The notes beneath the pieces are model-generated. The model searched no databases. It was not told the origin of the DNA and saw nothing but the letters and a program-made list of their open reading frames with translations. Positions 23,449-38,631 of a stretch of 40,007 bases of DNA are shown piece after piece. Origin of the DNA: a virus; the IMG/VR virus record IMGVR_UViG_3300031629_000016, positions 1 through 40,007 of that record; one strand, 5' to 3'. Position 1 is the stretch's first letter. Each line of letters starts with the position of its first letter. A program made the position numbers and the translations under genes.

Positions 23449-23887
23449 AACACTAGAAACAAGAGTCGCCGTTATCGAATCAGACATCAAGCAGTGGACA
23501 AACCTGTTTGGTCGTTTAGATGTGTCTATAGAAAAAATCACCGAACTTAATATCTCAATTAAGGAGGTGCTTGCAGTGCATGAACAACGTATAACCACAA
23601 CAGAGGTAGAGGTAGAGAGAAATGCCGATGGCTCTGATATTAAGTATGAACAACTCCATTCCCGCATTTCAACGATACACAGAGAAATCCTAAAAAACCA
23701 AGAGAAACTCACCGTTACTCTTATGGAGTCGATTGATTCCGTCCATCAAGCAGTTGACCTGAATGAAAAAAATGCTGATGACAGAATCAGGTCACTAGAG
23801 AAACGTCAATGGATGATGATGGGTGCCGCGGCAGTTATGGGGTTCATAATAGGCAATGCTGAAGTACTCAAACTTTTAATGAATTAA
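23438..23887 (+). CDS. Coiled-coil tail-anchored protein (DUF7201/XhlA-like)
   Basis: 149 residues. It starts MVGKTLETRVAVIESDIKQW, a helical repeat pattern, continues as a long coiled coil (about 20-118), and ends in one hydrophobic membrane segment (about 127-148, WMMMGAAAVMGFIIGNAEVL). The layout matches XhlA-like proteins and a marine phage family of unknown role; XhlA takes part in host lysis in Bacillus phages, so a lysis or membrane role is possible (inference). Last gene of the late block; an early promoter follows. Confidence 0.75.
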   Translation: MVGKTLETRVAVIESDIKQWTNLFGRLDVSIEKITELNISIKEVLAVHEQRITTTEVEVERNADGSDIKYEQLHSRISTIHREILKNQEKLTVTLMESIDSVHQAVDLNEKNADDRIRSLEKRQWMMMGAAAVMGFIIGNAEVLKLLMN

Positions 23888-23890
23888 CCC

Positions 23891-23919
23891 TTGACATCTG
23901 GTCAATCATCGTGTATACT
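23891..23919 (+). promoter_or_regulatory. Sigma70-like early promoter with -35 palindrome (twin 1)
   Basis: TTGACA (23891-23896), 17-base spacer, TATACT (23914-23919). The -35 box is the left arm of TTGAC-N5-GTCAA (23891-23905). The ATG of the next gene begins eight bases after the last base of the -10, at the expected transcription start. Confidence 0.88.
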
Positions 23920-23926
23920 ACCCACT

Positions 23927-24106
23927 ATGACTAAGAAGAAACCCAAGATTCCGCTGAATGGCGGCGCAGAGTATGATGCTCTTACTGATGCTCGTAAGTT
24001 CTATGTATATCTAACTAAGTCAGGGGTTGCTAAGTCAATCAAACGTGGATACAACAAACGATTCCGTAAGGAAGGCAAAGAAGAACTGCAAAATGAGTTA
24101 AATTAG
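23927..24106 (+). CDS. Small basic conserved phage protein, leaderless start likely
   Basis: 59 residues from ATG 23927; a start further upstream would lie inside the promoter. Pattern MTKKKPKIPLNGGAEYDALT, RKFYVYLTKSGVAKSIKRGY, NKRFRKEGKEELQ. Very basic, helical at the end; similar small proteins (IPL...EYDALT...KRxYNKRxRK) occur in T4-like cyanophages without known function. RNA or DNA binding is plausible (inference). It lies between two near-identical promoters, so it is its own short transcription unit with possible read-through into primase. Confidence 0.8.
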   Translation: MTKKKPKIPLNGGAEYDALTDARKFYVYLTKSGVAKSIKRGYNKRFRKEGKEELQNELN

Positions 24107-24109
24107 TTC

Positions 24110-24138
24110 TTGACATTTGGTCAATCATAGTGTATAAT
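24110..24138 (+). promoter_or_regulatory. Consensus sigma70-like early promoter (twin 2)
   Basis: Perfect TTGACA (24110-24115), 17-base spacer, perfect TATAAT (24133-24138). The 29 bases differ from the promoter at 23891 at only three positions and share the TTGAC-N5-GTCAA dyad (24110-24124). The primase ATG begins eight bases after the -10. Confidence 0.93.
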
Positions 24139-24145
24139 GTCCCTT

Positions 24146-25201
24146 ATGTTATACGTTGATGTGAAGTACATAAATCTGATATCTCATAATTTTGAGAAAT
24201 TCAAGAAAAAGAATGATTATCTTTGGAATGTAAGATGCCCGTTCTGTGGCGACTCACGCAAGAATCTTAATAAGATGCGTGGGTTTTTCTTCCGTAAAGA
24301 AAATAATATGATATTCAAGTGCCATAACTGTGGTCATGGCGCATCGATGAATAGCGTATTAAAGGAACTCGCACCCAATCTCCACAAGGAATATTGCCTT
24401 GAGAAGTTCGGCGAGACACAGAATAAGAAGAAGACGCCCACTTGGACACCGCAAGGGTCTGATTGGACACCCAATGGTCATAAGTTGTTTGATGATAAGC
24501 CAGTAGTACCGCCCAAGTTTGAACCTAAGTTTAGTTTGTTTTATAAATTGTGCGATAGATTGGACAGTCTCCCATATGACCATGAAGCAGTAAAATATGT
24601 TAAAAGTAGAAATATCCCAAATGATAAATGGGATCGACTTTACTATATCAATAACATAAAAGACATAGTACAACTCAACGACAAGTACCAAGATTCAATA
24701 GTTACTGACGAACCTCGATTGGTCATTCCCTTCTTTGACCACAATGGCGAGTTGATGTCAGTATCGCTGAGAGGTATGCGGGGAGAATCACTGAGGTATA
24801 TTCTTGTTAAGATACAAGAGGATGCGCCGACAGTGTTTGGTTTAGATAAAGTGGATTTGACCAAAACAGTATCAATTGTTGAGGGCCCGTTGGATAGTCT
24901 GTTTTTAGAAAACAGTATTGCCTGTGCTGGTACATCCTTCAACAAGATTGAACAGTTGAATATCCAGAAAGATAAGATTACAATTGTGATTGACAATCAA
25001 CCACGAAATGTAGAAGTTATGAAGGTGGTGGAGAAGTATGTCGAGTTGGATTATAATGTTGTTATATGGCCAGAATCGATAGTTCAGAAAGATATAAATG
25101 ATATGTACGATGCTGGTATTGATGTTGCTGATGTGATTAATAGTAATACACACAGTGGATTGACTGCCAAGTTTTTATTAAACCAATGGAAGAAGTGTTA
25201 G
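24146..25201 (+). CDS. 61: DNA primase, T4 gp61-type
   Basis: 351 residues from ATG 24146; ATG 24137 overlaps the -10 box and cannot be in the message. Makes RNA primers at the fork with helicase gp41. Zinc finger: Cys31, Cys34 (CPFC), Cys59, Cys62 (CHNC). The TOPRIM-type catalytic part has RLVIPFFDHNGELMSVSLRG, IVEGPLDSLFL (EGPLD, catalytic Glu and Asp) and IVIDNQPRN. Length matches T4 gp61 (342). KDINDM near the end is conserved in the family. Its promoter is the strongest match to consensus in the window. Confidence 0.95.
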   Translation: MLYVDVKYINLISHNFEKFKKKNDYLWNVRCPFCGDSRKNLNKMRGFFFRKENNMIFKCHNCGHGASMNSVLKELAPNLHKEYCLEKFGETQNKKKTPTWTPQGSDWTPNGHKLFDDKPVVPPKFEPKFSLFYKLCDRLDSLPYDHEAVKYVKSRNIPNDKWDRLYYINNIKDIVQLNDKYQDSIVTDEPRLVIPFFDHNGELMSVSLRGMRGESLRYILVKIQEDAPTVFGLDKVDLTKTVSIVEGPLDSLFLENSIACAGTSFNKIEQLNIQKDKITIVIDNQPRNVEVMKVVEKYVELDYNVVIWPESIVQKDINDMYDAGIDVADVINSNTHSGLTAKFLLNQWKKC

Positions 25202-25208
25202 GAGTAAT

Positions 25209-25889
25209 ATGAAGCAAGAAGTGAACCTAGTTGGATTGACACAACCATCAGCCCAATCTAACTGTAAGACGGCTAATCAATTAATTGCATATGCAGCTAG
25301 AGTTAGTAACCCCAATAATCAAGCCAATGAAAGAACCGCGCCTAAATTATTGTCCTATCTTATTAAAGAAGACCATTGGTCTCCGTTTGAAATTGTGTCA
25401 TTGACAATGGAGATAAAAACTACACGGGATATCGGAAGACAGATATTGCGACACCGTAGTTTTGCATTCCAAGAATTCAGTCAACGATATGCTGAGTCAA
25501 CCGATTGGGTTGAGAGGGAAACTAGATTACAGGATGATAAGAACCGACAGAACAGTGTTGAGTTGGGTGAATCTCTCAGTGACAAAGAACTAAATGAAAC
25601 TTGGGCAATGAAACAACGAGAGGTTATCAATAAATCAAAGGAGGTTTATGATTGGGCTCTTGGTTCTGGTATTGCAAAGGAACAGGCACGAGCAATACTA
25701 CCAGAAGGCAATACCATGAGTACTCTTTACATGGCTGGTACATTGCGTTCTTGGATTCATTACTGTCACTTACGAATGGGACACGGCACTCAGAAAGAAC
25801 ACAGTGAAATTGCTTCTTTGTGTTGGGATATCATTACCACCCACTTTCCAGATGTTGCTGCTGCCTGTGAAGACAGGTACAGTTTCTAA
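25209..25889 (+). CDS. thyX: Flavin-dependent thymidylate synthase ThyX
   Basis: 226 residues; AGGAGT before ATG 25209. Converts dUMP to dTMP using FAD, NADPH and methylene-tetrahydrofolate. The ThyX signature RHRX7S is present as RHRSFAFQEFSQRY at about 81-94, and ILPEGNTMSTLYMAGTLRSW matches the conserved region that binds dUMP (RxxLP-type, here RAILPEG). Further C-terminal HLRMGHGTQKEH and AEIA-type residues fit. It opens a run of nucleotide-metabolism genes (nrdA, nrdB, dCMP deaminase), giving the phage its own thymidylate supply. Confidence 0.96.
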   Translation: MKQEVNLVGLTQPSAQSNCKTANQLIAYAARVSNPNNQANERTAPKLLSYLIKEDHWSPFEIVSLTMEIKTTRDIGRQILRHRSFAFQEFSQRYAESTDWVERETRLQDDKNRQNSVELGESLSDKELNETWAMKQREVINKSKEVYDWALGSGIAKEQARAILPEGNTMSTLYMAGTLRSWIHYCHLRMGHGTQKEHSEIASLCWDIITTHFPDVAAACEDRYSF

Positions 25890-26726
25890 GTGGTTTCTAA
25901 GTATGAAGCCTTTGAACGGGTGTTGCATGGTAGGACAGATGACTTCTCACTGGAGGATGCCAGCGATTCTGTAAAGAAAAGAATCGCGTATGCATTTGGG
26001 TGGAACAGGGAGTTGGATGAACCCAGTAGACAGAAGTGGAGTTCTACCGACAATGAAGAAGCGTGGAAAGGAAACGTAAAGTTTAAACGGGATGTACTGG
26101 AGAAGGAAGGTTGGTTTGACACAGAAGTCTACTATGACCTAAACTCTCACGGGTATAGAGATGATGAATTCGTATCATCGCCCGACTCTATCATTGCCAT
26201 TGGAGAATGTTTTACCTATGGCACTGGTATACCAAGAGAGATGACATGGCCATACCTATTGGGCGAGGAATTGAACGAGAAGGTATGGAACTTAGGATTA
26301 TGCATGACGGGGCTTGACACTTGCTTCCGAACACTGTATAATTGGCTACCTGTCATCAAGCCTAAGATGGTTCTTCTATTGGAGAATAGTTCACTGGGTA
26401 GAGAAGTCTGGTCTGTTGATGAGTCCGGCAAGGAAGAATGGAACGATGCTATTGGGTTCTGGTCAAGTGTTGAGTGGCAGAAAGAGTTGGTCAATTCATC
26501 GACTGAAAGGTTTATATCAAGACAAAAGAATTTGCTTGCTGTATCCCAGTTGTGTTCCATTAACAATGTAGAATTAAAGATTATATCAGCATCAGAAAGA
26601 AATGCAGTCGGATTGGCAGACTATGCTAAGAACAAACATAAAAAATACGCTCTCTCACGAGACCTAATTCACCCAGGCCTCCCCTTCCATGAAGCAATGG
26701 TGGAACTCTGGAAAAAGGAACTATAA
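25890..26726 (+). CDS. SGNH-hydrolase-like protein with Cys at the nucleophile position
   Basis: 278 residues from GTG 25890, directly after the thyX stop; no strong ribosome site, so the start is uncertain. Block I reads AIGECFTYGTG at about 103-113 where SGNH/GDSL hydrolases have GDSxTxG: Ser is replaced by Cys107 and Asp by Glu106. Block II is NLGLCMTG, block III-like LLLENSS, and block V DLIHPG gives Asp258 and His261, the remaining catalytic pair. It could be a thiol esterase/acyltransferase or an inactive relative. The first 90 residues are a separate acidic domain not recognised. It is squeezed between thyX and nrdA (one-base TAATG overlap). Confidence 0.6.
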   Translation: MVSKYEAFERVLHGRTDDFSLEDASDSVKKRIAYAFGWNRELDEPSRQKWSSTDNEEAWKGNVKFKRDVLEKEGWFDTEVYYDLNSHGYRDDEFVSSPDSIIAIGECFTYGTGIPREMTWPYLLGEELNEKVWNLGLCMTGLDTCFRTLYNWLPVIKPKMVLLLENSSLGREVWSVDESGKEEWNDAIGFWSSVEWQKELVNSSTERFISRQKNLLAVSQLCSINNVELKIISASERNAVGLADYAKNKHKKYALSRDLIHPGLPFHEAMVELWKKEL

Positions 26727-28525
26727 TGCCCACGACAGATTACATTGGAATTAAGATAGACTTAGATAGGGACAAGTTGTTTGACTCGCTTGGACTTCAA
26801 CGTCTTAAAGAAAGTTACATGAAAGAGGAAGAAGATAGTCCCCAACATCGATTTGCTTATGTCAGTAAACAGTTTGGTAGTAACCCAGAACACGCACAAC
26901 GGTTATATGACTATTCAAGTAAACATTGGTTGTCTTACAGTACGCCTATATTATCATATGGTAGGTCGAAACGAGGACTGCCTATATCATGTTTCTTAAA
27001 TTACATTGATGATACAGCAGAGGGATTGGTAGAGAATTTCAGTGAGACAGCTTGGTTGTCTATGCTTGGGGGTGGTGTTGGTATTGGGTTTGGTATTCGT
27101 GCATCCGATGATATATCTACTGGGGTATTACCTCACCTTAAAACCTATGACTCAAGTTCACTTGCATATAGACAGGGCAGAACACGCCGTGGTAGTTATG
27201 CCGCTTACTTGGACATCTCACATCCAGACATTATGATGTTTATGGAAATGAGGAAAGGAACTGGTGACCAAAACATGCGGTGCCAGAACCTCCATCATGG
27301 TATTAATATCAATGATAGGTTCATGGAGATTATTGAACGGTGTATGACAGACCCCAATGCTGATGATAGATGGAATCTTACTGACCCGCACACTGGTGAA
27401 GTGCGAGATACTGTATCAGCTAAGGCATTGTGGCAGAAGATACTTGAACTCCGCATGGAGACAGGCGAACCATACTTACACTTCATCGATGCAAGTAATC
27501 GTGGCCTACCAGATTTCCAGAAGGCATTGGGATTAAAGATACACCAGAGTAATCTATGTTCTGAAATAATTCTGCCTACCAACAAAGACCGAACCGCCGT
27601 GTGTTGTTTGTCTTCTGTTAACTTGGAACACTATGACGCATGGTCAAAAAGTCCATTGTTCTTAAAAGATATCGCAGAGATGTTAGACAATGTATTGCAG
27701 TACTTCATTGATAATGCACCAAAACATGTATCACGAGCAATCTACTCCGCAAAACAGGAACGTAGTATTGGTGTTGGTGCGTTGGGGTTTCATGCCTACC
27801 TACAGAAACAAGGTATACCATTTGAAAACTTCTTAGCGAAGTCTACAAATATTAGAATGTTTAAATTAATTAGGAGTAGGTTAGATGTGGCAAACATTGA
27901 ACTTGGCACTGCACGAGGCGAAGCTATTGACGCAAGAGGCACGGGACGAAGATTTAGTCATGTTATGGCTATTGCTCCTAATGCTTCCAGTAGTATTATT
28001 ATGGGCAACACTTCACCGTCTGTGGAACCTTATCGTGCAAATGCTTACCGACAAGACACATTATCTGGATCGTATCTCAATAAGAATAAGCATCTGGATG
28101 CTCTTATTAAAAGTAAAGTTGAAGAGAATAAACGCTTGGATTATGACCAGATTTGGTCATCGATAGTTGCTAACGATGGTTCTGCCCAACACGTTTCATG
28201 TTTGAGTGATAAAGAAAAAGAAGTATACAAGACTGCTATGGAGATTGACCAACGATGGGTCATCGAACATGCTTCCACGAGACAGGAATGGATTGACCAA
28301 TCACAGTCAATAAATCTATTCTTCCGTCCCACGGTAAACATTAAGTATTTACATGCGGTGCATTATCTTGCATGGAAACAGGGTATGAAAACCCTATACT
28401 ATTGTCGGTCTGAGAAACTGGGTAAGGCAGATAAGATATCACAACGCATTGAGAGGGCAGTTATTAAAGAACTCGATTTTCAGAGTATGATAGATGGTGA
28501 CAATTGCGTGGCGTGCGAAGGCTGA
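26726..28525 (+). CDS. nrdA: Ribonucleotide reductase large subunit NrdA
   Basis: 599 residues, class Ia type, reduces ribonucleoside diphosphates. Redox cysteine in PISCFLN, active-site NLCSEI, second redox cysteine region CCLSSVNLE, the radical-transfer tyrosine pair in TLYYCRSE, and C-terminal CVACEG for regeneration. Compared with E. coli NrdA (761) it lacks the N-terminal ATP cone, so overall activity inhibition by dATP is probably absent, as in many phage enzymes. No intein. Coupled to neighbours by TAATG and TGATG joins. Confidence 0.96.
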   Translation: MPTTDYIGIKIDLDRDKLFDSLGLQRLKESYMKEEEDSPQHRFAYVSKQFGSNPEHAQRLYDYSSKHWLSYSTPILSYGRSKRGLPISCFLNYIDDTAEGLVENFSETAWLSMLGGGVGIGFGIRASDDISTGVLPHLKTYDSSSLAYRQGRTRRGSYAAYLDISHPDIMMFMEMRKGTGDQNMRCQNLHHGININDRFMEIIERCMTDPNADDRWNLTDPHTGEVRDTVSAKALWQKILELRMETGEPYLHFIDASNRGLPDFQKALGLKIHQSNLCSEIILPTNKDRTAVCCLSSVNLEHYDAWSKSPLFLKDIAEMLDNVLQYFIDNAPKHVSRAIYSAKQERSIGVGALGFHAYLQKQGIPFENFLAKSTNIRMFKLIRSRLDVANIELGTARGEAIDARGTGRRFSHVMAIAPNASSSIIMGNTSPSVEPYRANAYRQDTLSGSYLNKNKHLDALIKSKVEENKRLDYDQIWSSIVANDGSAQHVSCLSDKEKEVYKTAMEIDQRWVIEHASTRQEWIDQSQSINLFFRPTVNIKYLHAVHYLAWKQGMKTLYYCRSEKLGKADKISQRIERAVIKELDFQSMIDGDNCVACEG

Positions 28526-29160
28526 TGATGACAGTGTTCACGTTTTCATTGGTGAAGGATATTCCCCTAGACAAACGAATCGCGGTCATGGTTAGTGGGG
28601 GTTGGGACAGTGCTGTCATGTGGTACATGGTTAAGACTGTATGTATGCAACGCAATCAGGAGTGTAATGCGTTTACAGTACCGAAGATAGATGGTGCTGA
28701 ACATTACGCTAATAAGGTGCTAGAGTGGTCATCCAAGACGCTAGGGCATCGCCAGACAGAGACTACCATCGTAGGGGACATATCCTCTACCAATCCCTCT
28801 GACTATGTTACCAGTGGGGCATATGAGATATTTGAGAGGGACTTGGCGGATCATTTATTCACCGCCGTAAATAAGTACCCGCCTAATCAAAGGGACATGC
28901 TGGATGAAGGTTATCCAATGCCCAATGATAGATTCCAGAAACCGGAGTCGGGGTTTGAGAAATTGAGTCAACCTTTTGCGAACTTTACAAAGGATATGAT
29001 AGTACAACTAGGGTTTGATTTGGGGATTGCAGGTGCCATCTCCCCTATCACCCACAGTTGCACCGAACTAAACAGGGGTAGATGTAATTCTTGTTGGTGG
29101 TGCAAAGAAAGAGAATGGGCATTCAAACAAATAAACAAAACAGATACCGGAGAGAACTAA
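28525..29160 (+). CDS. QueC-like PP-loop ATPase
   Basis: 211 residues from ATG 28525 (TGATG join with nrdA; ATG 28528 equally possible). PP-loop signature SGGWDSA at 24-30, with a C-terminal zinc-site pattern HSC...RGRCNSCWWC (His177, Cys179, Cys187, Cys190, Cys193), the arrangement of QueC (7-cyano-7-deazaguanine synthase). QueC adenylates a carboxylate and installs a nitrile to make preQ0. The partner genes (folE, queD, queE, dpdA-type) are not in this window, so DNA or tRNA deazaguanine modification cannot be claimed; other PP-loop enzymes share the fold. Lodged between the two RNR subunit genes. Confidence 0.72.
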   Translation: MMTVFTFSLVKDIPLDKRIAVMVSGGWDSAVMWYMVKTVCMQRNQECNAFTVPKIDGAEHYANKVLEWSSKTLGHRQTETTIVGDISSTNPSDYVTSGAYEIFERDLADHLFTAVNKYPPNQRDMLDEGYPMPNDRFQKPESGFEKLSQPFANFTKDMIVQLGFDLGIAGAISPITHSCTELNRGRCNSCWWCKEREWAFKQINKTDTGEN

Positions 29161-29161
29161 G

Positions 29162-30151
29162 ATGACACCAAAACAAGACTTGACAAGTAAGAGAGAATAT
29201 TTTAAACCATTTAATTATCCGTGGGCATATGACGCATGGTTGAAACACGAACAATCGCATTGGTTACACACAGAAGTGCCTATGGCGGAGGATGTGAAAG
29301 ATTGGAAGACTGTATTGACACCGGCCGAGAAATCATTTCTTACTAATATCTTTCGGTTCTTCACACAAGGTGACATTGATGTCGCTGATGGATATGTGAC
29401 CAACTACTTGCCATATTTTCCACAACCAGAAGTTCGTATGATGTTATCTGGATTTGCTGCTAGGGAGGCATTGCATGTTGCTGCGTACTCGCATTTGATT
29501 GAGACTCTTGGTATGCCAGAAAGTACATACAGTGAGTTCTTAGAGTATCAGGCGATGGCGGACAAACACGAATATTTCGTGGGACTGTCTCAAGCGAATG
29601 GAACCAAGAAAAGTATTGCTGTTAACATTGCAGCTTTCAGTGCATTCACTGAGGGTATGCAGTTGTTTAGTTCTTTCATCATGTTGTTGAATTTCGCACG
29701 ACATGGTAAGATGAAAGGTATGGGACAAATTATTACATGGTCTATCGTGGATGAGACAATGCACGCTGAGTCCATGATTAAATTGTTTAGAACATATGTC
29801 GAAGAGAATCTAGAGATTTGGAATGACGAACTGAAAAAAGAAATCTACACTGTCGCTGAACAGATGGTAGTGTTAGAAGAGAAGTTCATTGACTTGGCAT
29901 TTGCAATGGGGCCAATGGACAATCTTACATCCGATGATGTTAAGAAATACATTCGATATATTGCAGACAGGAGATTGATTAGTTTGGGCATGAGAGGGAT
30001 ATTCAAAGCGAAAAAGAATCCATTACCGTGGGTAGAGGAAATGATAAACGCTCCAACACACACCAACTTCTTTGAGAACCGCGCCACTGATTATGCTAGG
30101 GGCGCAGTAGAAGGTGAGTGGGGTGAGGTATGGGGGTCAGTGACATCATAA
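29162..30151 (+). CDS. nrdB: Ribonucleotide reductase small subunit NrdB
   Basis: 329 residues. Holds the diiron-tyrosyl radical used by NrdA. Metal ligands Asp71, Glu102 and His105 (REALH) and radical Tyr109 fall at the E. coli spacing (Asp84, Glu115, His118, Tyr122). The second set, FTEGMQLF and VDETMHAES, contains the remaining Glu/Glu/His. So a radical-bearing class Ia enzyme, not an NrdF or Tyr-free type, is predicted. The C-terminus that docks to NrdA ends EVWGSVTS. Overlaps the next gene by one base. Confidence 0.96.
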   Translation: MTPKQDLTSKREYFKPFNYPWAYDAWLKHEQSHWLHTEVPMAEDVKDWKTVLTPAEKSFLTNIFRFFTQGDIDVADGYVTNYLPYFPQPEVRMMLSGFAAREALHVAAYSHLIETLGMPESTYSEFLEYQAMADKHEYFVGLSQANGTKKSIAVNIAAFSAFTEGMQLFSSFIMLLNFARHGKMKGMGQIITWSIVDETMHAESMIKLFRTYVEENLEIWNDELKKEIYTVAEQMVVLEEKFIDLAFAMGPMDNLTSDDVKKYIRYIADRRLISLGMRGIFKAKKNPLPWVEEMINAPTHTNFFENRATDYARGAVEGEWGEVWGSVTS

Positions 30152-30339
30152 TGACAGAACATTCAAAACAAGTAGAGTGTATTAACTGTGATGCGGTTTA
30201 TAAGATAAAGACCGATTCTTTGTCTGAGTCACATTATATAATTTCATACTGTTCATTTTGTGGCGCAGAGGTGGAATTAGAAGAGGAACTGCAAACTGAT
30301 TTCCTTGATGAGTTTGGGGAAGTTGTAGAGGATTGGTAA
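30151..30339 (+). CDS. Small zinc-ribbon protein
   Basis: 62 residues from ATG 30151 (TAATG join with nrdB). Cys10/Cys13 (CINC) and Cys34/Cys37 (CSFC) form a zinc ribbon with 20 residues between, followed by an acidic helix (VELEEELQTDFLDEFGEVVEDW). Similar small ribbons accompany RNR genes in phages, but no partner is known. It ends with a TAATG join to the dCMP deaminase gene. Confidence 0.75.
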   Translation: MTEHSKQVECINCDAVYKIKTDSLSESHYIISYCSFCGAEVELEEELQTDFLDEFGEVVEDW

Positions 30340-30776
30340 TGATAGATAAATTTGACCATGCCTACATGGATGTGGCTGCAAGATTTGGTGAACTTTCATC
30401 AGCAGAAAGACTGAAGGTGGGTTGTATCATTGTAAAGGATGATAGGATAATTTCTATTGGATACAATGGTACGCCCGCTGGATGGGACAATTGTTGTGAG
30501 GATGTAAAGAAAAGTGGTAACACTGGATACGGTAGGAAACTAGTAACTAAACCAGAAGTACTACACGCAGAGACAAACGCAATTGCTAAAGTTGCTAAGT
30601 CTACGGAGAGTGCCGATGGTGCTGAGATGTATACTACACACGCTCCGTGTTTGGAATGTTCTAAGTTGATATACCAATCCGGTATTAAACATGTCCTTTA
30701 TAAAGAAGAGTATAGAGACAGTGATGGCCTCACCCTTTTGAAGAAGTTGGGTCTTGTAATAACTAAAGTGGAGTAG
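30339..30776 (+). CDS. dCMP deaminase
   Basis: 145 residues from ATG 30339. Zinc-dependent deaminase turning dCMP into dUMP for thymidylate synthesis. HAE motif at 77-79 (His77, Glu79) and PCLEC with Cys104 and Cys107 form the zinc/catalytic site; VGCIIVKDDRIISIGYNGTP is the family's strand-loop. With ThyX, it feeds dTMP production. Its last 12 codons plus stop lie in a 40-bp sequence (30743-30782) that is repeated exactly after purM. Confidence 0.94.
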   Translation: MIDKFDHAYMDVAARFGELSSAERLKVGCIIVKDDRIISIGYNGTPAGWDNCCEDVKKSGNTGYGRKLVTKPEVLHAETNAIAKVAKSTESADGAEMYTTHAPCLECSKLIYQSGIKHVLYKEEYRDSDGLTLLKKLGLVITKVE

Positions 30777-30782
30777 CAGATG
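30743..30782. repeat. 40-bp perfect direct repeat, copy 1
   Basis: Spans the dCMP deaminase 3' end, its stop, the GGAG ribosome site and the purM ATG. It begins GAAGTTGGGT and ends GTAGCAGATG. Copy 2 is at 31731-31770. Flanking bases differ on both sides. Confidence 0.98.
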
Positions 30783-31754
30783 AATTATAAAGACAGTGGT
30801 GTGGACTTACATGAACAGGATATGTTTAATGCTAAGTTAGGACAGAAAATGCCTTGGTTGGGTGGATTTGGTGGAGCGTTTGATATTGGCGAAGATTACT
30901 TAGTATCATCTACGGATGGTGTTGGAACTAAAGTAAAACTATACACTCAATCGCAGAAGGAAGAGGGTGTTGATATTAAAAACCTCGGAATTGACTTGGT
31001 CGCTATGGTGGTCAATGACCTTGTTTGTACGGGCGCTAAACCCCTATTCTTCAACGATTACTTATCAGTCAATACTATTGATTCGATAGATGCAATGGGA
31101 ATAATTGAAGGTATTAACGAGGGTCTAGCACAGTGTGGTGATGGTATTCCTTTGATTGGTGGAGAGACTGCTATCATGGGTGATATGTATAAAGAGGGTG
31201 AGTTTGATATAGCAGGTTTTGGTGTTGGTGCGTGTCCTAAGGAAAACTTTATTGACGGCAGTGGTATTGAGGTTGGTGATGTTATGCTGGGGTTGAAATC
31301 TAACGGATTTCATTCCAACGGTTATACCTTGATTCGTCAGGTTGTTTCGCACACAGTAGAGAATGACCCAGAATCAATCCCTGAGGGGTTATTTGCAGAT
31401 TTACTTAAACCGACTAGGATTTATGTAAATAGTATATTAAAGGTTTTAGACTATTATAAAGAAGACGTTCATGGCATATCTCACATCACTGGTGGAGGAC
31501 GATACAATGTTAATAGGTTGCTTGGTGATATTAACCTAAAACCAAAGTGGAATAATAACAATACAGCGTTCAGACAAGATGAGTTTAATTGGATACAAAA
31601 GGCAGGAAACATTAGTGACGAGGAAATGCGTCGAGTGTTCAATGATGGTATTGGTATGGTATTAGTGGTCAACCGTAACAGTGCTCAGAAAATTATATCA
31701 TTACTTGAGTCTTTGGGTGAAGATGTGTTTGAAGTTGGGTCTTGTAATAACTAA
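30780..31754 (+). CDS. purM: PurM, phosphoribosylformylglycinamidine cyclo-ligase, with replaced C-terminus
   Basis: 324 residues (E. coli PurM 345). ATP-dependent cyclisation of FGAM to AIR in purine synthesis. Family segments: YKDSGVDLHEQD, STDGVGTKVKL, LGIDLVAMVVNDLVCTGAKP, GGETAIMGDMY, ISHITGGGRYNVNR (the catalytic-domain GGG loop) and FNDGIGMVLVV. The end, EDVFEVGSCNN, diverges right after the Gly that in E. coli starts about 14 more residues; the extra codons come from the repeated deaminase tail read in another frame. The gene uses the repeat's ribosome site. Known marine phage metabolic gene (purM) that boosts nucleotide synthesis; whether the altered tail is active is not known. Confidence 0.94.
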   Translation: MNYKDSGVDLHEQDMFNAKLGQKMPWLGGFGGAFDIGEDYLVSSTDGVGTKVKLYTQSQKEEGVDIKNLGIDLVAMVVNDLVCTGAKPLFFNDYLSVNTIDSIDAMGIIEGINEGLAQCGDGIPLIGGETAIMGDMYKEGEFDIAGFGVGACPKENFIDGSGIEVGDVMLGLKSNGFHSNGYTLIRQVVSHTVENDPESIPEGLFADLLKPTRIYVNSILKVLDYYKEDVHGISHITGGGRYNVNRLLGDINLKPKWNNNNTAFRQDEFNWIQKAGNISDEEMRRVFNDGIGMVLVVNRNSAQKIISLLESLGEDVFEVGSCNN

Positions 31755-31770
31755 AGTGGAGTAGCAGATG
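31731..31770. repeat. 40-bp perfect direct repeat, copy 2
   Basis: Identical over 40 bases to 30743-30782. It forms the purM 3' end (EVGSCNN and stop), the ribosome site and the ATG (31768) of the following methyltransferase gene. Confidence 0.98.
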
Positions 31771-32454
31771 TATTGTATGTTTTATGGATATGATTTAGAA
31801 TATGACGATAGTTGTTTTGTGCCAACCACCATCACGAAGTTTACTGCTATAAATGTACCCGTAAAGGGTAAGACCGTATTAGACCTTGGATGTGGCATTG
31901 GCCCACTCGCGGTTTACTTTGCAAAGAATGGTGCCAAGTCGGTAACTGCTAGTGACGTATATGATAAACATATATACTACACCAAAAGAAATGTCGCTAT
32001 CAATCAGTCAACCGATCCTACTGGTACTCAAGTGGATACCATACAGAGTGACCTATTTGAAAATATAGATGACAAGTTTGATGTGATTGCATGTGATGTA
32101 TCTGGTATTGATAGAAGGGTGGCAGAGATGACGGGATGGTTTCCGAAAGGAGTCCCCACTGCCGATGAGACAGGTGCTGATATAATATGCAGGGCGATAC
32201 GCGAGGCCCCATACCATCTGAATAAGGGTGGGGAGTTGTACATATGTACGGCACAGTTTTCAGACGTAGAACGAATAAAAGAAGAGATGAACTCCAGTAC
32301 AATGATGACCAAGGCAGAACAGGTATTCACCAAACAGATACCATTCTCAAAGATACTGTTGGACAATATTGGTGACCTTGACCCCTCGCACTACACCAAA
32401 AAGGGGTCACGGTATGTCTGGGAATTTGGATTGTGGAAAATGAAATTAATATGA
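31768..32454 (+). CDS. SAM-dependent methyltransferase (HemK/RsmC-like fold)
   Basis: 228 residues from ATG 31768, the ATG that ends the 40-bp repeat; ATG 31777 is possible. Motif I VLDLGCGIGPLAVYFAKNGA at 38-57, motif II-like VTASDVYDKHIYYTKRN, and FDVIACDVSGID at the position where N6/PrmC-type enzymes have NPPY, so the substrate amide motif is missing. A helical end follows. Substrate unknown (small molecule, protein or RNA). Its translation start is supplied by a duplicated deaminase tail, which suggests it originally followed the dCMP deaminase directly. Joined to the next gene by ATGA. Confidence 0.78.
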   Translation: MYCMFYGYDLEYDDSCFVPTTITKFTAINVPVKGKTVLDLGCGIGPLAVYFAKNGAKSVTASDVYDKHIYYTKRNVAINQSTDPTGTQVDTIQSDLFENIDDKFDVIACDVSGIDRRVAEMTGWFPKGVPTADETGADIICRAIREAPYHLNKGGELYICTAQFSDVERIKEEMNSSTMMTKAEQVFTKQIPFSKILLDNIGDLDPSHYTKKGSRYVWEFGLWKMKLI

Positions 32455-32753
32455 TTGGTAAGAAATTGGTAACCACATGGATGATTCTACTGTGGGTGTT
32501 GCTATTGCCTATCATTGCATTTATACCACAATCCAATTGCTGGTACTATGCTGGCAAAAGATGGTTCCTTGAAGGATTCAGGGGAAAGATTGTTCCGGTT
32601 GCCAGTAGACGATGGAGAGGATACCACTGTGTCTATGAAGACGAACATGGACAGTTGTGGGAGTTTACATTACAACGGATGCCCAAGTTTGTGCCTTGGT
32701 GGAAATTAATATTGTATCGTGGAATTGAGAGGAAGTATCGTGGAAAGTTATAG
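32451..32753 (+). CDS. Small membrane protein
   Basis: 100 residues from ATG 32451 in an ATGA overlap; a GTG at 32433 is possible. One hydrophobic helix near the start (about 7-25, VTTWMILLWVLLLPIIAFI) then a basic, aromatic-rich soluble part with WRGYHCVYEDEHGQLWEFTL. It overlaps the next gene by 14 bases if that one starts at 32740. Not recognised; membrane location predicted. Confidence 0.65.
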   Translation: MIGKKLVTTWMILLWVLLLPIIAFIPQSNCWYYAGKRWFLEGFRGKIVPVASRRWRGYHCVYEDEHGQLWEFTLQRMPKFVPWWKLILYRGIERKYRGKL

Positions 32754-33369
32754 TCAATTTTTAACTAGGGAGGTGTTTCCTTGTGTAGAGGGTAAACGGG
32801 TTTTAGAAATTGGTTCTCTTACTGGCCGCATTACAGAAGAAATTAGAAAACACACTCCATTGGAAATAACAACAATAGACCCAGACCCGATGGTGAGAAA
32901 ACAAACCACATTCAGTGGTACTGCCAATGACTATTTTAATTATTATTGTTTCGACAAATCGGCGACTGACCACCTTTCTCGATACGATGTAGTTGTTTTG
33001 ATGGGTGTGTTGTACCATTTACATAGTCCACTTCATTTATTGGAGATGATTATAAACAAAATCAGACCAGAGATGTTGATAATTGAAACTGCTACTGGCG
33101 AACCTTACCATGTCGCTGTGGATACCGAATACAGTGGAACGCCTGGCAATGCATGGCCTGATAAAGGAATCGAATACCCGATAAGAACGAACATAAACTT
33201 TTCAACAAAAGATTTGATTGCGACTATCGAAACAACACCCATGAAATTACGAAGAAAGGTTATCTATGAGGAACGATTTGATAATTGGCATGGTGCGAAT
33301 TTGGAACAGGATTCTCTGGAACATAGTAAACGAGGCATGTGGATAGGGCATTTTCAATGGCGGAACTAA
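32740..33369 (+). CDS. Class I SAM-dependent methyltransferase
   Basis: 209 residues from GTG 32740, with AGAGGAAG just before it; GTG 32719 is the longer option. Motif I VLEIGSLTGRITEEI, motif II ITTIDPDP, post-motif VVLMGVLYHLHSPLHLLEMI, and MLIIETATGEPYHV, like tRNA-CmoB/ubiquinone-type small-molecule methyltransferases. The C-terminal part is polar with aromatic residues. Substrate unknown. A second methyltransferase near 31768 suggests that the two modify related targets or one is a spare (inference). Confidence 0.78.
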   Translation: MESYSQFLTREVFPCVEGKRVLEIGSLTGRITEEIRKHTPLEITTIDPDPMVRKQTTFSGTANDYFNYYCFDKSATDHLSRYDVVVLMGVLYHLHSPLHLLEMIINKIRPEMLIIETATGEPYHVAVDTEYSGTPGNAWPDKGIEYPIRTNINFSTKDLIATIETTPMKLRRKVIYEERFDNWHGANLEQDSLEHSKRGMWIGHFQWRN

Positions 33370-33539
33370 TGAAGAAACTTTGGGTAGTGTGGAAACATGC
33401 GCTGGGCTCATTCGATGAAGAGGATGGGTATGATGTTCAAAATGAAAATAGAATATCAGCCATCCGCACGTTCATAGTATTGTCAAACCTAATATGCGTA
33501 TACCTAATTATGATTAATATCCTTGTGGGTTGGTTCTGA
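33369..33539 (+). CDS. Small C-terminally anchored protein
   Basis: 56 residues from ATG 33369 (TAATG join, GGCGGAA upstream); ATG 33357 in frame adds four residues. A soluble N-terminal half (KKLWVVWKHALGSFDEEDGY) and one membrane helix at the end (about 36-55, TFIVLSNLICVYLIMINILV). Not recognised. Tightly joined to both neighbours by TAATG and TGATG, so part of one operon. Confidence 0.6.
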   Translation: MKKLWVVWKHALGSFDEEDGYDVQNENRISAIRTFIVLSNLICVYLIMINILVGWF

Positions 33540-33763
33540 TGGCAGCGATAACACCGATAACACATGAACATGCAAAGAAACCAAAACTAGTCAGTGCTAA
33601 CAAAGACGAGGCAATGGATAGATTATGGGGTGGTGAAAAGACCATAAATAGTAGTTCGCTAAGTGAGGAATTACCTGATGGTTATGAGTGGAACAGTAAA
33701 AGAACTAAAATCGTCCCCGAAGAAGAAAAAGAAGAAGAAGAAAACGCCCCCGAAGACCCATAG
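33539..33763 (+). CDS. Small protein with acidic tail overlapping a basic reading frame
   Basis: 74 residues from ATG 33539 (TGATG join). The N-terminus is polar (MAAITPITHEHAKKPKLVSA), the end is strongly acidic (PEEEKEEEENAPEDP). The DNA behind that tail (33717-33755) is an A/G-rich run that in the next frame gives eight consecutive lysines for the following gene. Not recognised. It overlaps that gene by 86 bases, so one of the two may not be translated from its full predicted start. Confidence 0.55.
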   Translation: MAAITPITHEHAKKPKLVSANKDEAMDRLWGGEKTINSSSLSEELPDGYEWNSKRTKIVPEEEKEEEENAPEDP

Positions 33764-34055
33764 AGTTTACTGTACATATTTTCCTGATGGGAGATACTAC
33801 ATTGGATATTCGTGCAAGAGTGATAAACTATATGAGAAGTACTTTGGCAGTTCTAAGTTTGTCAAGGAGTGGGAAGGCCAATTAAGAAAAGAAACCATAG
33901 TAGAGTATGACCAACGTAACTATGCAAAGATACAGGAATTCCTATATCAATGGCAACAAAGGAAAGACCCAAATTGCCTGAATGACATGTTACATATAAG
34001 ATTGAGAATGGGTTACTTATCAGAGTTTGAACCCGTGGAGTGGACTCCAGTTTAG
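33678..34055 (+). CDS. GIY-YIG-like endonuclease domain protein
   Basis: 125 residues from ATG 33678 (GAGGAA seven bases before); ATG 33684 is possible. After a lysine run (residues 15-22) comes VYCTYFPDGRYYIGYS, matching the GIY-YIG signature with the second motif YYIGYS and the first replaced by VYC. The following part (YFGSSKFVKEWE, YDQRNYAKIQEFLYQW) fits the small domain's helix region; the usual catalytic Glu cannot be placed with confidence. Free-standing GIY-YIG proteins in T4-like phages are homing or degradation endonucleases. Without a DNA-binding NUMOD module it would be a minimal nuclease. Confidence 0.62.
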   Translation: MVMSGTVKELKSSPKKKKKKKKTPPKTHRVYCTYFPDGRYYIGYSCKSDKLYEKYFGSSKFVKEWEGQLRKETIVEYDQRNYAKIQEFLYQWQQRKDPNCLNDMLHIRLRMGYLSEFEPVEWTPV

Positions 34056-34069
34056 GAGATAGTAAAATA

Positions 34070-35029
34070 ATGGTATTATTAATAGGACTGCTGTTCTCAG
34101 CATTATCAGTATCGGCAGTTGCCGCATACTTTTCTATTGTTGGGTTGATGGCAATTTTCAGTGGACTACCCCAATCCATATTTGCTATGGGAGTTGCCTT
34201 GGAGATTGCCAAACTTGTTACCGCATCTTGGGTGTACCAGTATTGGGCAAAGACGCAATGGGTGATGAAGACGTATATGGTCTTAGCGATAATCATACTG
34301 TCCATTATCACATCCATTGGTATATTTGGATTCCTATCTAAAGCGCACATAGACCAGACAGCAACAAATGCCGACTACGCTCTAAGTATTGATGTGATAG
34401 AGTTTAGACTAGACGCAGAGGTCAGCAAACTAAATCAGGCCAGAAACCGCATTGTCGGATTAGATGACACACTCAGAACATCCCAAGGCAAAGATAAGAA
34501 TTATGTTAACGGAAGACAACGAGTTGAACGTGCCGAACTAAATGCACAGATGGATGCTGCCGTTGTTAGGATTGACGAACTCAATCTTGAACTGTTACCA
34601 ATGAGACAACAAACAGCACAGATGGATGCTGAGATAGGCCCCATCAAATACATATCAGAACTAATATACGAGGAGTCAGGCAAGGATAGTGTTGACAAGT
34701 CAGTGCGTATCATTATACTACTGCTCATGTTTGTGTTTGACCCATTGGCCATCGTGTTAGTGATTGCGGCCAACATGAGTTTTAAGGAAAGAACCGGCGG
34801 TAGAATCACAATGATGTCGATTGATGAGTCGGTGGTAGAGGAACAGATAATACCAGAATCTCCAGCAGAGGCATCAGATGATGCTGGTCACCATTTTACC
34901 AGTGAACCACACATTGCTGCAGATATAGATGATTGGGTAATGGATAAGTATGGTACAACTTCTGGTAGTGAAAATTTAACGGATGGCGAGAAGAAGAAAT
35001 TAAAGTGGTTGATAGATAAGGAAACTTAA
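34070..35029 (+). CDS. Conserved multi-span membrane protein with coiled coil
   Basis: 319 residues from ATG 34070; the AGGAGAT lies 11 bases upstream, longer than ideal, but the family starts with a hydrophobic LIGLLFS-type segment here. TM segments about 1-17, 21-41, 75-95 and 215-237 (VRIIILLLMFVFDPLAIVLV). Between them a coiled coil (about 100-200) with RVERAELNAQMDAAVVRIDE. The FGFLSKAHIDQ and FDPLAIVLVIAAN blocks are typical of a widely shared marine T4-like phage protein with no known function. The acidic tail (after about 245) is variable. Inner-membrane location predicted; a role in host takeover is inference. Confidence 0.85.
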   Translation: MVLLIGLLFSALSVSAVAAYFSIVGLMAIFSGLPQSIFAMGVALEIAKLVTASWVYQYWAKTQWVMKTYMVLAIIILSIITSIGIFGFLSKAHIDQTATNADYALSIDVIEFRLDAEVSKLNQARNRIVGLDDTLRTSQGKDKNYVNGRQRVERAELNAQMDAAVVRIDELNLELLPMRQQTAQMDAEIGPIKYISELIYEESGKDSVDKSVRIIILLLMFVFDPLAIVLVIAANMSFKERTGGRITMMSIDESVVEEQIIPESPAEASDDAGHHFTSEPHIAADIDDWVMDKYGTTSGSENLTDGEKKKLKWLIDKET

Positions 35030-35031
35030 TA

Positions 35032-35748
35032 ATGTTATCGTACAAGTATATTGATTTTGTGCCAAAGAGGTTTGATTGGTCTATATGTTTAAGACAACCA
35101 TTTGCCAATAGATTTGATATGTCTGCATCTGAACATGGCGACTGGGCTAGAAACCAAAGTTTTACAGATGCAGAACGACAAACTATCATTGATGAGAGTT
35201 ATTATCAAATCTATGGCCCATTAGACTATTGGCAGATGAAGAACATTCCAATAGAAGATTTCTCATTCTCTACTGTACACGGCAATTCTGTCGAAACGAT
35301 TAAAAGTTATGTGAAGTCTTATCGTGGTTACTTGGGTATATTGATAGGTAACAATAGTTACACCCCATCCACACAGACCAGATTATTCAAACACGCCCAC
35401 TTACCACTAACAACTGACGGCGTAACCTACAAGGACACCTTTACCATAATATACCCGATACATATTGAGGGGGAGGTTACAGAGAGTATGAAAGTATTCT
35501 TTACTGATAAATGTCTAGGCGTCCCCAATTTGACTGCTCCACTTAGAGAACCAGAAGTTGATGTAACCACGATTGATTTCCCCAAACAAGGGCAGGCATT
35601 ACTGGTACATTTTAATTCATGTAATGGTATACACTGGGTTGATGGTTTAACTAATAACAACTTTATAGCACATGCCTTTGATGGTGTCACTATCAATAAA
35701 CAATTCTATGAGGAAACGCATCCGCCATTTTATTATCGCGCTGCGTAA
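35032..35748 (+). CDS. Hypothetical protein, possible double-stranded beta-helix
   Basis: 238 residues from ATG 35032. A pattern RLFKHAHLPL, FTIIYPIHIEGE, QALLVHFNSCNGIHWVD and FIAHAFDGVTI suggests cupin/2-oxoglutarate-oxygenase-type strands with histidines, but a firm metal-binding HxD...H set is not seen. I do not recognise the family for certain. Last gene before the early promoter at 35756. No membrane segment or signal peptide. Confidence 0.5.
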   Translation: MLSYKYIDFVPKRFDWSICLRQPFANRFDMSASEHGDWARNQSFTDAERQTIIDESYYQIYGPLDYWQMKNIPIEDFSFSTVHGNSVETIKSYVKSYRGYLGILIGNNSYTPSTQTRLFKHAHLPLTTDGVTYKDTFTIIYPIHIEGEVTESMKVFFTDKCLGVPNLTAPLREPEVDVTTIDFPKQGQALLVHFNSCNGIHWVDGLTNNNFIAHAFDGVTINKQFYEETHPPFYYRAA

Positions 35749-35755
35749 ATAACCC

Positions 35756-35784
35756 TTGACATTTGCCCTATGATGGTGTATAAT
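35756..35784 (+). promoter_or_regulatory. Consensus sigma70-like early promoter
   Basis: Perfect TTGACA (35756-35761), 17-base spacer and perfect TATAAT (35779-35784), with AAATAACCC before the -35 as at the other early promoters. Predicted start near 35791; the dyad of the twin promoters is degenerate here. Confidence 0.93.
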
Positions 35785-35815
35785 GGTTGTTATCAAATGA
35801 GATGTGGAGAGAAAA

Positions 35816-36886
35816 ATGCCATCCCTATTAACTAATGGTTGTTCTATTACACTTGGTGCGGAACTAGGTGAAACGACTGAAAAACTTGATGATGTATCGT
35901 GGCAGGCCTGCGATTTTCAATACAGACATGACCATCGATGGCCCACTATACTCGCAAAGAAATTGGAATTGTCCCCCGTCAACTTATCTAGGGGCGGTGG
36001 TTCTAATTGGCGTACTTGGAGAACGACTCAAGATTTCTTGTTAGAAACAGACAAGATTGTTAATTGTGCAGTCATACAGATGACAGAAGCAAGTAGGTTC
36101 CAGATACCAATTGGATTTGATTTCATAGACAAATGGCGGCCAACTGAACCAACACCAGATTTCCATAATTGGGCAGACGGCGGGATATGGTCTCAAGAAA
36201 GTGATGTTGGGTATTTTACTCAGGAAGAATATTGTAATTGGAACTGGGGCGAATACCAAACGATGGTTGAAAATATACATGGCACACCAGCGTATTCATT
36301 CCAAAATGACAACGACAAGAACGTCACTGGACATTACCATAATATGAAAGATGAGTTCTCGGCATTGACATTTATGAATCAGTCAGTGCATAGTTTGTTT
36401 GACTATCTCCGCCATGTGATTTACTTACATGATATGTTTGAGAGTAACGAGATACCACACCTAATAGTTGACATGATGATGAACTGGGAAACGTGTCAAA
36501 AATTGAAATCAGAACTAGAAATGATTGACGCCTTTGGCACAGAAGTATTGTCTAATACACCCCCCAGAGGATGTAATTGGCGTACTAAGTGGGCGCATTT
36601 TGATACTTTTGGTGACCCTGAGAAGGATAAGACAAATAAGATTTTCATAAGGACAATGCAAAAATCAGAAATGAGTAGGAAGTTTAATAACCTATTCAAA
36701 ACAGTTTCCACTGCGAAGTGGTTTGATGGTCACCCCTATGCGATGTATTTTAGGGATGCGCCGTACAACAACCAACCCAATGGGTTGTATATCGGGCATA
36801 TGCCGGATGGCCACCCCGATGAGGCATGCCATCAGGCATATGCCGATAGAATATATAATGAACTTAAAGGAAGGAAAATATTATGA
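35816..36886 (+). CDS. SGNH-hydrolase-like protein (GCS variant)
   Basis: 356 residues from ATG 35816, with GGAGAG five bases before it; GTG 35804 would put the ribosome site inside the gene. Block I is LTNGCSITLG (Gly8-Cys9-Ser10) where GDSL enzymes have GDS, so the serine is kept. Block II NLSRGGGSNWRTW has the conserved Gly/Asn pair, an AVIQMTEASRF strand stands at block III, and DGHPDEACHQAYADRIYNEL gives block V with His. This GCSxTxG family recurs in marine phages without known substrate; ester or glycan cleavage is inference. First gene behind a strong early promoter, so it acts early. Confidence 0.68.
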   Translation: MPSLLTNGCSITLGAELGETTEKLDDVSWQACDFQYRHDHRWPTILAKKLELSPVNLSRGGGSNWRTWRTTQDFLLETDKIVNCAVIQMTEASRFQIPIGFDFIDKWRPTEPTPDFHNWADGGIWSQESDVGYFTQEEYCNWNWGEYQTMVENIHGTPAYSFQNDNDKNVTGHYHNMKDEFSALTFMNQSVHSLFDYLRHVIYLHDMFESNEIPHLIVDMMMNWETCQKLKSELEMIDAFGTEVLSNTPPRGCNWRTKWAHFDTFGDPEKDKTNKIFIRTMQKSEMSRKFNNLFKTVSTAKWFDGHPYAMYFRDAPYNNQPNGLYIGHMPDGHPDEACHQAYADRIYNELKGRKIL

Positions 36887-37176
36887 ATGATGTAACCTAT
36901 ACACAAGAGCAACTGCAAAAAGTACTCGTAAATGATAGTAACCACATATCAAATCTCTTACAAACACACGAGGTGGTGCTTGGATACAAGAAACTCGATG
37001 GAACAGAAAGGGATGTCCGTGCTACCCTGAAGCCAGACTTACTGCCTGAGGTGACTAGTCCCGTTCAAACAGGGGGTGCTAAAGTAAAGGACACCCATGT
37101 GACGGTGTATGATACCGAAAAAATGAACTGGCGCACACTAATTGTCGCTAATATTCAATATATTCGATCTTTTTAG
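36883..37176 (+). CDS. SH3-like DUF2693-type protein
   Basis: 97 residues, ATGA overlap with the preceding stop. The motif VLGYKKLDGTERDVRATLKP, LLPEV, then HVTVYDTEKMNWRTLIVANI matches the DUF2693-like family of small beta-barrels in T4-like phages (KxxGxxRxMxxTLxxxxLP ... VWDxxxxxWRSFRxxxI). Function unknown; such folds often bind nucleic acids or host proteins. An N-terminal helix of about 25 residues precedes the barrel. A promoter follows the stop. Confidence 0.75.
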   Translation: MNDVTYTQEQLQKVLVNDSNHISNLLQTHEVVLGYKKLDGTERDVRATLKPDLLPEVTSPVQTGGAKVKDTHVTVYDTEKMNWRTLIVANIQYIRSF

Positions 37177-37186
37177 TAAATAACGC

Positions 37187-37216
37187 TTGACACTTGGTCT
37201 ACACATGTGTTACTAT
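37187..37216 (+). promoter_or_regulatory. Early-type promoter
   Basis: TTGACA (37187-37192) preceded by AAATAACGC as at 913 and 35756, an 18-base spacer, and TACTAT (37211-37216, four of six matches) after GTGT. Weaker than the others; about 31 bases before ATG 37248. Confidence 0.65.
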
Positions 37217-37247
37217 ATAGCCTTAGTAATCATAAAAGAGTCCAATC

Positions 37248-37760
37248 ATGGCACGAATATCAAAAGAAGACTTCCGAAAGGAACCCGCTCCGACTCGGAA
37301 ACGTAGGAAACCTATGACCGAAGAACAACGGGCTGCCGCTGCCGAACGGTTAGCGAAGGCCCGTGAGGAGAAGGCGAAGAAGAACCCTCCGCAACTGAAA
37401 TCTGTCCACCCCGATGTACTGGCGAAAGACGATGATGATATGTTATCGTATGTAAAGGTGAAGGCGTGGATTAAGGCCAACAAAGATAAGTTGCCTTCCC
37501 TGAGACAACAGGAGAAACAAGGTGCTAAGGGTGCTCTTGCTCAATATGAGTCTGTCAGGCATTACATCAATTCGATGGAAAGATACCTGAAAGATTCGGT
37601 ATGGACAAACCAATTTCTTGGCGAAGACCAAGAGAAACGTGTTGTCTGGCGTTGTATTGTTCCAGCGTTTGACGCAGATGGTAATATCAAACGCCAGAAG
37701 GGCGTGTACTACACAGACATACAAGGCGTTTGGGGGGAAGAATCAGATGATAATAATTGA
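37248..37760 (+). CDS. Conserved marine phage protein, basic N-terminus
   Basis: 170 residues. Basic, disordered start (about 1-65) with many Lys/Arg (FRKEPAPTRKRRKPMTEEQR, AAAAERLAKAREEKAKK), then a more ordered part: SVHPDVLAKDDDDMLSYVKVK, ALAQYESVRHYINSME, RVVWRCIVPAFDADGN and GVYYTDIQGVWG. I recall this layout from T4-like cyanophages where it precedes the RNase H gene; no function known. It overlaps RNase H by 14 bases. First gene of the 37187 promoter unit. Confidence 0.78.
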   Translation: MARISKEDFRKEPAPTRKRRKPMTEEQRAAAAERLAKAREEKAKKNPPQLKSVHPDVLAKDDDDMLSYVKVKAWIKANKDKLPSLRQQEKQGAKGALAQYESVRHYINSMERYLKDSVWTNQFLGEDQEKRVVWRCIVPAFDADGNIKRQKGVYYTDIQGVWGEESDDNN

Positions 37761-38631
37761 TTACAACCAGATTGGTATAGGCGCCCTCATGGCACACATG
37801 AATGGGTCTAAATCCGAAGTCATGGATACTGACCTAGTTCGCCATATGATACTCAATACCTTACGCAGTTATAAAGCTAAGTACGGTGATGAGTATGGTG
37901 ATTTGGTGATTGCCTGTGACAATAGAAGATACTGGCGGAGGTCGGTATTTCCACAGTACAAGGCGAGTCGAAAGAAGACAAGAGAATCCAGTGGTTATGA
38001 TTGGGCATCTATCTTCCAAGGTTTGTCGATGGTCAAACATGAACTACAACAACACATGCCGTATCCGGTTATTGATGTTGATGGTGCAGAGGCAGATGAT
38101 GTGATTGGTACATTATGTGCATACAGTCAAGACCATGATTTGACAGACCACCCATTGTTCCCAGATGCTCAGAGATTGCTCATTGTGTCGGGTGACCATG
38201 ACTTCCAACAACTACAGAAATATTCTAACGTGGCGCAATTTTCACCCATGAAGAAGAAGTTCGTAGTAATCAAGGAAAGTGCCGAGGCAATACTGCGCGA
38301 ACATATCATACGCGGTGACAAGGGCGATGGTGTACCCAATATCCTCAGTTGTGATAATAGTTTTGTTGATGGCATACGACAGACACCTATTCGTAAAGTT
38401 CTAGTTGCTGAGTGGAAGACTCAGAAACCAGAGGAGTGGGTGACGGGTGATATGGCCGCAGGGTATATCCGAAACAAGACTATGGTGGATTTGACATGTA
38501 CGCCCGATGACATCAAGGAACAGATTGTCAATCAATACGAGGCTCAATTAAATAAGTCCTCCGAGGACATGTATAAATATTTCATGAACTTTGAATTAGA
38601 CAGACTAATTGATGTGATTGATGACTTTTAA
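37747..38631 (+). CDS. rnh: T4-type RNase H (5' nuclease, FEN-like)
   Basis: 294 residues from ATG 37747 (T4 RNase H 305); starts inside the preceding gene after GGAAGA. Removes RNA primers and flap DNA on the lagging strand. Metal site residues of the FEN family: Asp5 (IIIDYN), Asp58 (ACDNRRYWRRSVFPQYKASR), Glu115/Asp117/Asp118 (AEADDVI), Asp150 and Asp152 (SGDHDF), Asp191 and Asp194 in RGDKGDGVPN. Complete acidic set, so probably active. The stop is followed by GGAGAATG for the next gene. Confidence 0.94.
   Translation: MIIIDYNQIGIGALMAHMNGSKSEVMDTDLVRHMILNTLRSYKAKYGDEYGDLVIACDNRRYWRRSVFPQYKASRKKTRESSGYDWASIFQGLSMVKHELQQHMPYPVIDVDGAEADDVIGTLCAYSQDHDLTDHPLFPDAQRLLIVSGDHDFQQLQKYSNVAQFSPMKKKFVVIKESAEAILREHIIRGDKGDGVPNILSCDNSFVDGIRQTPIRKVLVAEWKTQKPEEWVTGDMAAGYIRNKTMVDLTCTPDDIKEQIVNQYEAQLNKSSEDMYKYFMNFELDRLIDVIDDF
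38572..38579 (+). promoter_or_regulatory. Late-promoter-like TATAAATA inside rnh 3' end
   Basis: Exact TATAAATA within the RNase H coding sequence (near its end), 65 bases before the next ATG at 38645. It may be a real late promoter for the downstream genes or chance, since it is in coding DNA. Confidence 0.4.

Follow-up and report, generated by a model that had tools for sequence, protein, structure and literature searches.

Morons are extra genes inserted between adjacent phage genes. In T4-related phages, foreign genes are added between conserved genes by ectopic or illegitimate recombination, without known mobile-element signatures, and the junctions of such additions are described as giving few clues in general (Petrov et al. 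2010, PMC2993671). PeSL regulatory cassettes of T4-like phages, as outlined in a paper that cites their description (Arbiol et al. 2010 and Comeau et al. 2014, cited in PMC4503421), combine a promoter with a stem-loop and place a short repeat at both borders of a movable gene. The purM gene is an auxiliary metabolic gene in cyanophages and pelagiphages and is carried by 45% of one pelagiphage group (PMC5083919, PMC9599517). In the literature on target duplications around phage-acquired genes, our search found nothing specific.

Here, we analyzed 40,007 nucleotides of viral DNA (IMG/VR record IMGVR_UViG_3300031629_000016, positions 1 to 40,007, called the window below), in which a purM from another marine phage lineage was very probably added to a T4-like phage by microhomology-guided illegitimate recombination. 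As in the additions of PMC2993671, a foreign gene lies between conserved genes, and a recombination-driven replication system is present as well (genes for a UvsX-like recombinase and a T4-type polymerase lie in the window), but in this case both joints could be resolved, along with the duplicated target, the empty site and the donor clade. Like a moron, this purM is a single gene added between two neighbors in an otherwise matching genome, but it borrows the recipient's ribosome site and has no detected promoter or terminator of its own. As in the PeSL cassettes outlined in that source, a short repeat marks both borders; in contrast to their promoter and stem-loop, it consists of a coding tail and a ribosome site and would have been made by the insertion itself. 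The enzyme family (phrog_1207) is that of the cyanophage and pelagiphage genes, but the cyanophage versions are only distantly similar, and the nearest relatives of the window gene belong to another phage group, where they follow a DNA ligase gene.

Pfam, NCBIfam and PHROGs concur on the gene assignments around the site (Table 1), where purM entered a nucleotide-metabolism cluster that includes nrdB.

Table 1. Features at and around the purM insertion, in window coordinates
Feature	Position	Strand	Details
nrdB, ribonucleotide reductase small chain	29162..30151	+	PF00268, 1.7e-74
dcd, dCMP deaminase	30339..30776	+	PF00383, 4.5e-24; phrog_174; 3' end is the source of the duplicated bases
Repeat copy 1	30743..30782	+	dcd tail, TAG stop, overlapping GGAG ribosome site, CAG, purM ATG
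purM, 324 aa	30780..31754	+	TIGR00878; phrog_1207; residues 1-320 from the donor lineage
Left crossover zone	30780..30789	+	Recipient ATGTATTGTA, donor ATGAATTATA; 8/10, ATGnATTnTA
Right crossover zone	31731..31740	+	Recipient GAAGTTGGGT, donor relative L001 GAGGTTGGGT; 9/10, GA(A/G)GTTGGGT
Repeat copy 2	31731..31770	+	purM end, same GGAG, methyltransferase ATG
Raised divergence from L095	31765..33744		29 differences, beginning at the repeat
Methyltransferase (small-domain class I), right neighbor of the insertion site	31768..32454	+	PF05175, 4.2e-14

The first-pass annotation of this DNA had reported a perfect direct repeat around purM, which proved exact: the copies are identical at 40/40 bases with a spacing of 988, the match extends over 5 of the 7 bases beyond the ATG (45/47), and base composition predicts about 4e-15 such 40-base pairs by chance. 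The roles it had assigned to the two copies at the gene ends, and the change of frame between them, also agree with the sequence, copy 2 being read as the purM end (codons S C N N stop, 31740-31754). This is the longest direct repeat within the 40-kb window. Among 92 purM loci (the window included, some contigs present twice), the window is alone in having purM straddled by an exact repeat of ≥15 bp. Five other exact repeats of ≥22 bp with 200-4000 bp spacing occur in the window and the first ~97 loci (716 kb), and they comprise a dsrA stretch present in duplicate and, in other phages, AT-rich repeats. In L078, L080, L086 and L092, direct repeats that are AT-rich and related to one another (26-29 bp, 0.6-1.6 kb apart) start around GTTCTT and are perhaps promoter-type. 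Separately, a baseplate- or fiber-like gene in the window holds a 39-bp repeat, 87% identical (21131-21169 and 21776-21814), which probably reflects repeated protein domains.

Two described kinds of inserted gene were considered for purM and rejected. No terminator-like stem-loop was found at either repeat copy and no close inverted repeat within the 40 bp, as a PeSL cassette would have. The moron reading was set aside because a promoter and a terminator belonging to purM went undetected: in a consensus scan that carried little information, promoter-like matches numbered 16 against 13.3 in shuffles, and the same kind of scan found no terminator on the purM gene strand.

The same site is found without purM in a sister genome, contig IMGVR 3300047668_000295 (L095, L096 and L098 in our set). 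L095 aligns to window positions 22708-30789 at 99.6% and 31731-38486 at 98.8%; it lacks purM, and dcd is followed directly by the methyltransferase, with a single repeat copy (3964-4003, 39/40 against the window). A profile search with the methyltransferase returned 13 contigs, each of which has the backbone QueC - nrdB - dcd - site - methyltransferase. The site is empty in five of them, with 3-17 bases from the dcd stop to the matched methyltransferase start: L095 and the more distant relatives L099-L102. The deaminase-methyltransferase junction that the first-pass annotation had proposed to look for among relatives therefore exists, both in a near-identical genome and further afield. Because L099-L101 are mutually close, the empty state represents about three lineages; it is likely ancestral.

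The layout of L095 is just what recombination between the two 40-bp copies would produce, so the sister could be an excision product, with purM as the older state at the site. This account differs from the insertion reading solely in the history of L095 and is improbable, as L099-L102 are empty too, adding at least two further lineages, and a dcd-derived repeat requires that insertion came first in any case.

In the remaining eight contigs (L103-L110), the site holds other cargo of ~1.6-3.0 kb. Where seen in L040, L041 and L036 (views of L104, L106 and L107), this cargo begins no more than a few bases from the dcd stop, and its first gene has a CxxxCxxC motif and is radical-SAM-like by eye. 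None of the 13 related contigs has purM at the dcd-methyltransferase site, and the full records of six of the eight cargo-bearing contigs have no purM match. Because eight relatives hold other cargo there, the boundary is a recurrently used gene-gain site in this phage group.

The nearest relatives of the window purM are found in L001 (91% DNA identity) and L002-L005 (88%), which, in the stretches compared, match the window over purM alone; the similarity ends at the crossover point. These genes encode 342 residues. In their phages, a small ORF separates purM from a DNA ligase gene upstream, and an exonuclease-like gene and a topoisomerase subunit are present as well. No dcd match was found in five donor-type records, and neither dcd, nrdB nor this methyltransferase occurs near the other purM loci. 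PurM of cyanophages is only ~40% identical to that of the window, and a search of genome_contigs for a bacterial source gave 73 pattern matches, with no relative confirmed. The dS between the window and L001 purM genes is 0.42, far above the divergence of the window from L095, so most of it must have accrued in the donor lineage, and the direct donor is unsampled. In base composition, a comparison that the first-pass annotation had proposed, purM (GC 38.9%, GC3 33.5%) resembles the L001 gene (38.7%, 34.1%), but it also lies near the range of the neighboring genes, which makes this a weak signal.

More distantly, L009 carries a 68% purM relative near a dsrA gene, which recalls the viruses described from sulfur-oxidizing SUP05 bacteria (PMC4164917). 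At the end of that locus (L009:7081-8941), a second dsrA-like frame, in part a repeat, comes after dsrA. Upstream of purM, the flanks in L001, L002, L006 and L009 differ as far as the ATG, a pattern that repeated exchange bounded by the start codon might give.

Both joints were scored against a donor relative, the exact donor being unsampled. At the right joint, the 9/10 match between L001 and the recipient has a random-pair P of ~6e-5, and no other site in the donor gene has ≤1 mismatch; the match lies at the (E/K)-(V/I)-G segment and bears out the microhomology that had been suggested there from the window sequence alone. At the left joint, the donor flank is unrelated to the recipient up to the ATG, and the match has P ~0.02 once the shared ATG is granted, so the crossover at the start codon is only weakly matched. 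The earlier picture of purM placed between two copies of a deaminase tail thus holds for the repeat and the empty site but not for the gene, which is not whole: its tail has been replaced. Relatives with full purM tails lack the repeat.

Joints of this kind bear on whether a purM fragment of another phage was joined into the contig during assembly. The purM-plus junctions are known from one metagenomic assembly, with no second record of either in viral_contigs (a weak absence, as near-identical records may be omitted there), and a near-identical empty-site genome exists. However, no run of identical bases shared by donor and recipient at the joints exceeds 7, far below assembly word length; the repeat, absent from the donor relatives, could not have linked contigs; and the fused gene keeps its reading frame, with intact start, stop and ribosome sites. 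We regard an artefact as very improbable.

The order recipient, repeat, donor gene, repeat, recipient, together with short matches at the joints, is what a switch out and back would be expected to leave, and template switching was probably the physical process. Copying along the recipient would have reached the methyltransferase start codon and there moved over to the purM start codon of the donor (the ATG-ATT-TA match). Donor purM would then have been copied to codon 320, where a switch back at GA(A/G)GTTGGGT would have led into the dcd tail, to a position 37 bases before the departure point, so that 40 recipient bases were copied twice; the opposite copying direction would be equivalent. The product is a start-codon-precise fusion: purM takes the old ribosome site, a second copy of which stays with the methyltransferase, and four repeat-derived codons give PurM its new end.

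A staggered break with an offset of ~40 nt at the dcd-methyltransferase boundary, with both ends filled in and a purM fragment caught by short end matches, without template switching, would leave the same scar, with the 40-bp target duplication as its directly expected outcome, and a breakage-prone site would also explain why different cargo is repeatedly held there. Simple capture does not need a 9/10 match at the right joint, however, and the good match on that side favors switching over fill-in. Nor is the other cargo surrounded by dcd-tail duplications, with none above shuffles in L103, L105, L106, L107 and L109, and 40 nt would be a long stagger for nuclease cuts. We consider the staggered break unlikely, though with an appreciable chance of being correct.

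Target duplications are typical of transposition, and the insert is bounded and sits at a recurrent site, as might follow if a dedicated mobile element (a transposon, a homing endonuclease cassette or an integron-like cassette) had moved purM and duplicated its target. Yet purM is all that the insert contains, with no transposase, integrase or endonuclease gene and no terminal inverted repeats; its right end cuts purM inside the coding sequence, and no other purM has a flanking repeat. Such an element is extremely improbable.

The window protein follows the donor relatives to codon 320 (EVG) and then continues with SCNN and a stop from the repeat, so that 22 donor residues after EVG were lost and four codons gained. 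It scores 293.2 bits against TIGR00878 (curated cut-off 236.35), covering profile positions 2-329 of 332, and PurM relatives at 67-70% identity end ~8 residues past the crossover point. Because of this natural end point and the near-full profile match above the cut-off, function of the shortened PurM is plausible. Escherichia coli PurM aligns over residues 2-320. An omega of 0.06 against relatives indicates strong purifying selection, most of it predating the insertion. In an AlphaFold model (8 sequences; mean pLDDT 55, usable for the C-terminal half alone, the N-terminal half being unreliable), the new residues lengthen the last strand (316-323) with good local confidence. From pathway knowledge, the gene likely adds to purine supply beside ribonucleotide reductase and dCMP deaminase, and we infer a benefit to nucleotide supply.

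Because the two repeat copies are still identical, the insertion appears young relative to mutation, at the little resolution that 40 bases give. Divergence between the window and L095 is uneven: no differences fall in 29042-30776 (1735 bp), so that the dcd coding region is identical, and 17 fall in 31765-32410. The tract 31765-33744 reads as a mosaic whose step lies exactly at the insertion, which suggests homologous exchange: either a purM-plus sibling supplied purM together with ~2 kb of the flank downstream, or L095 underwent exchange there. Mutagenic break repair is disfavored as the cause of this divergence, 11 of 16 changes in the methyltransferase being synonymous.

For one single-gene gain, the sequences show recipient, empty site and donor clade as well as both crossovers and the scar. 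Other cases could be searched for by the form of this scar, a short repeat that joins the tail of the upstream gene to the start codon of the next and brackets a single gene. Tandem copies of the purM-repeat unit are possible, and excision through the repeat may make the arrangement reversible, which could be tested in laboratory T4. More broadly, and with only a small chance of being correct, start codons with their ribosome sites may repeatedly serve T4-like phages as points where microhomology lets whole genes in; one switch out and back would yield an expressed, operon-integrated gene at once, the dcd-methyltransferase boundary would be one such dock, and the flanking repeat would keep the gain reversible.
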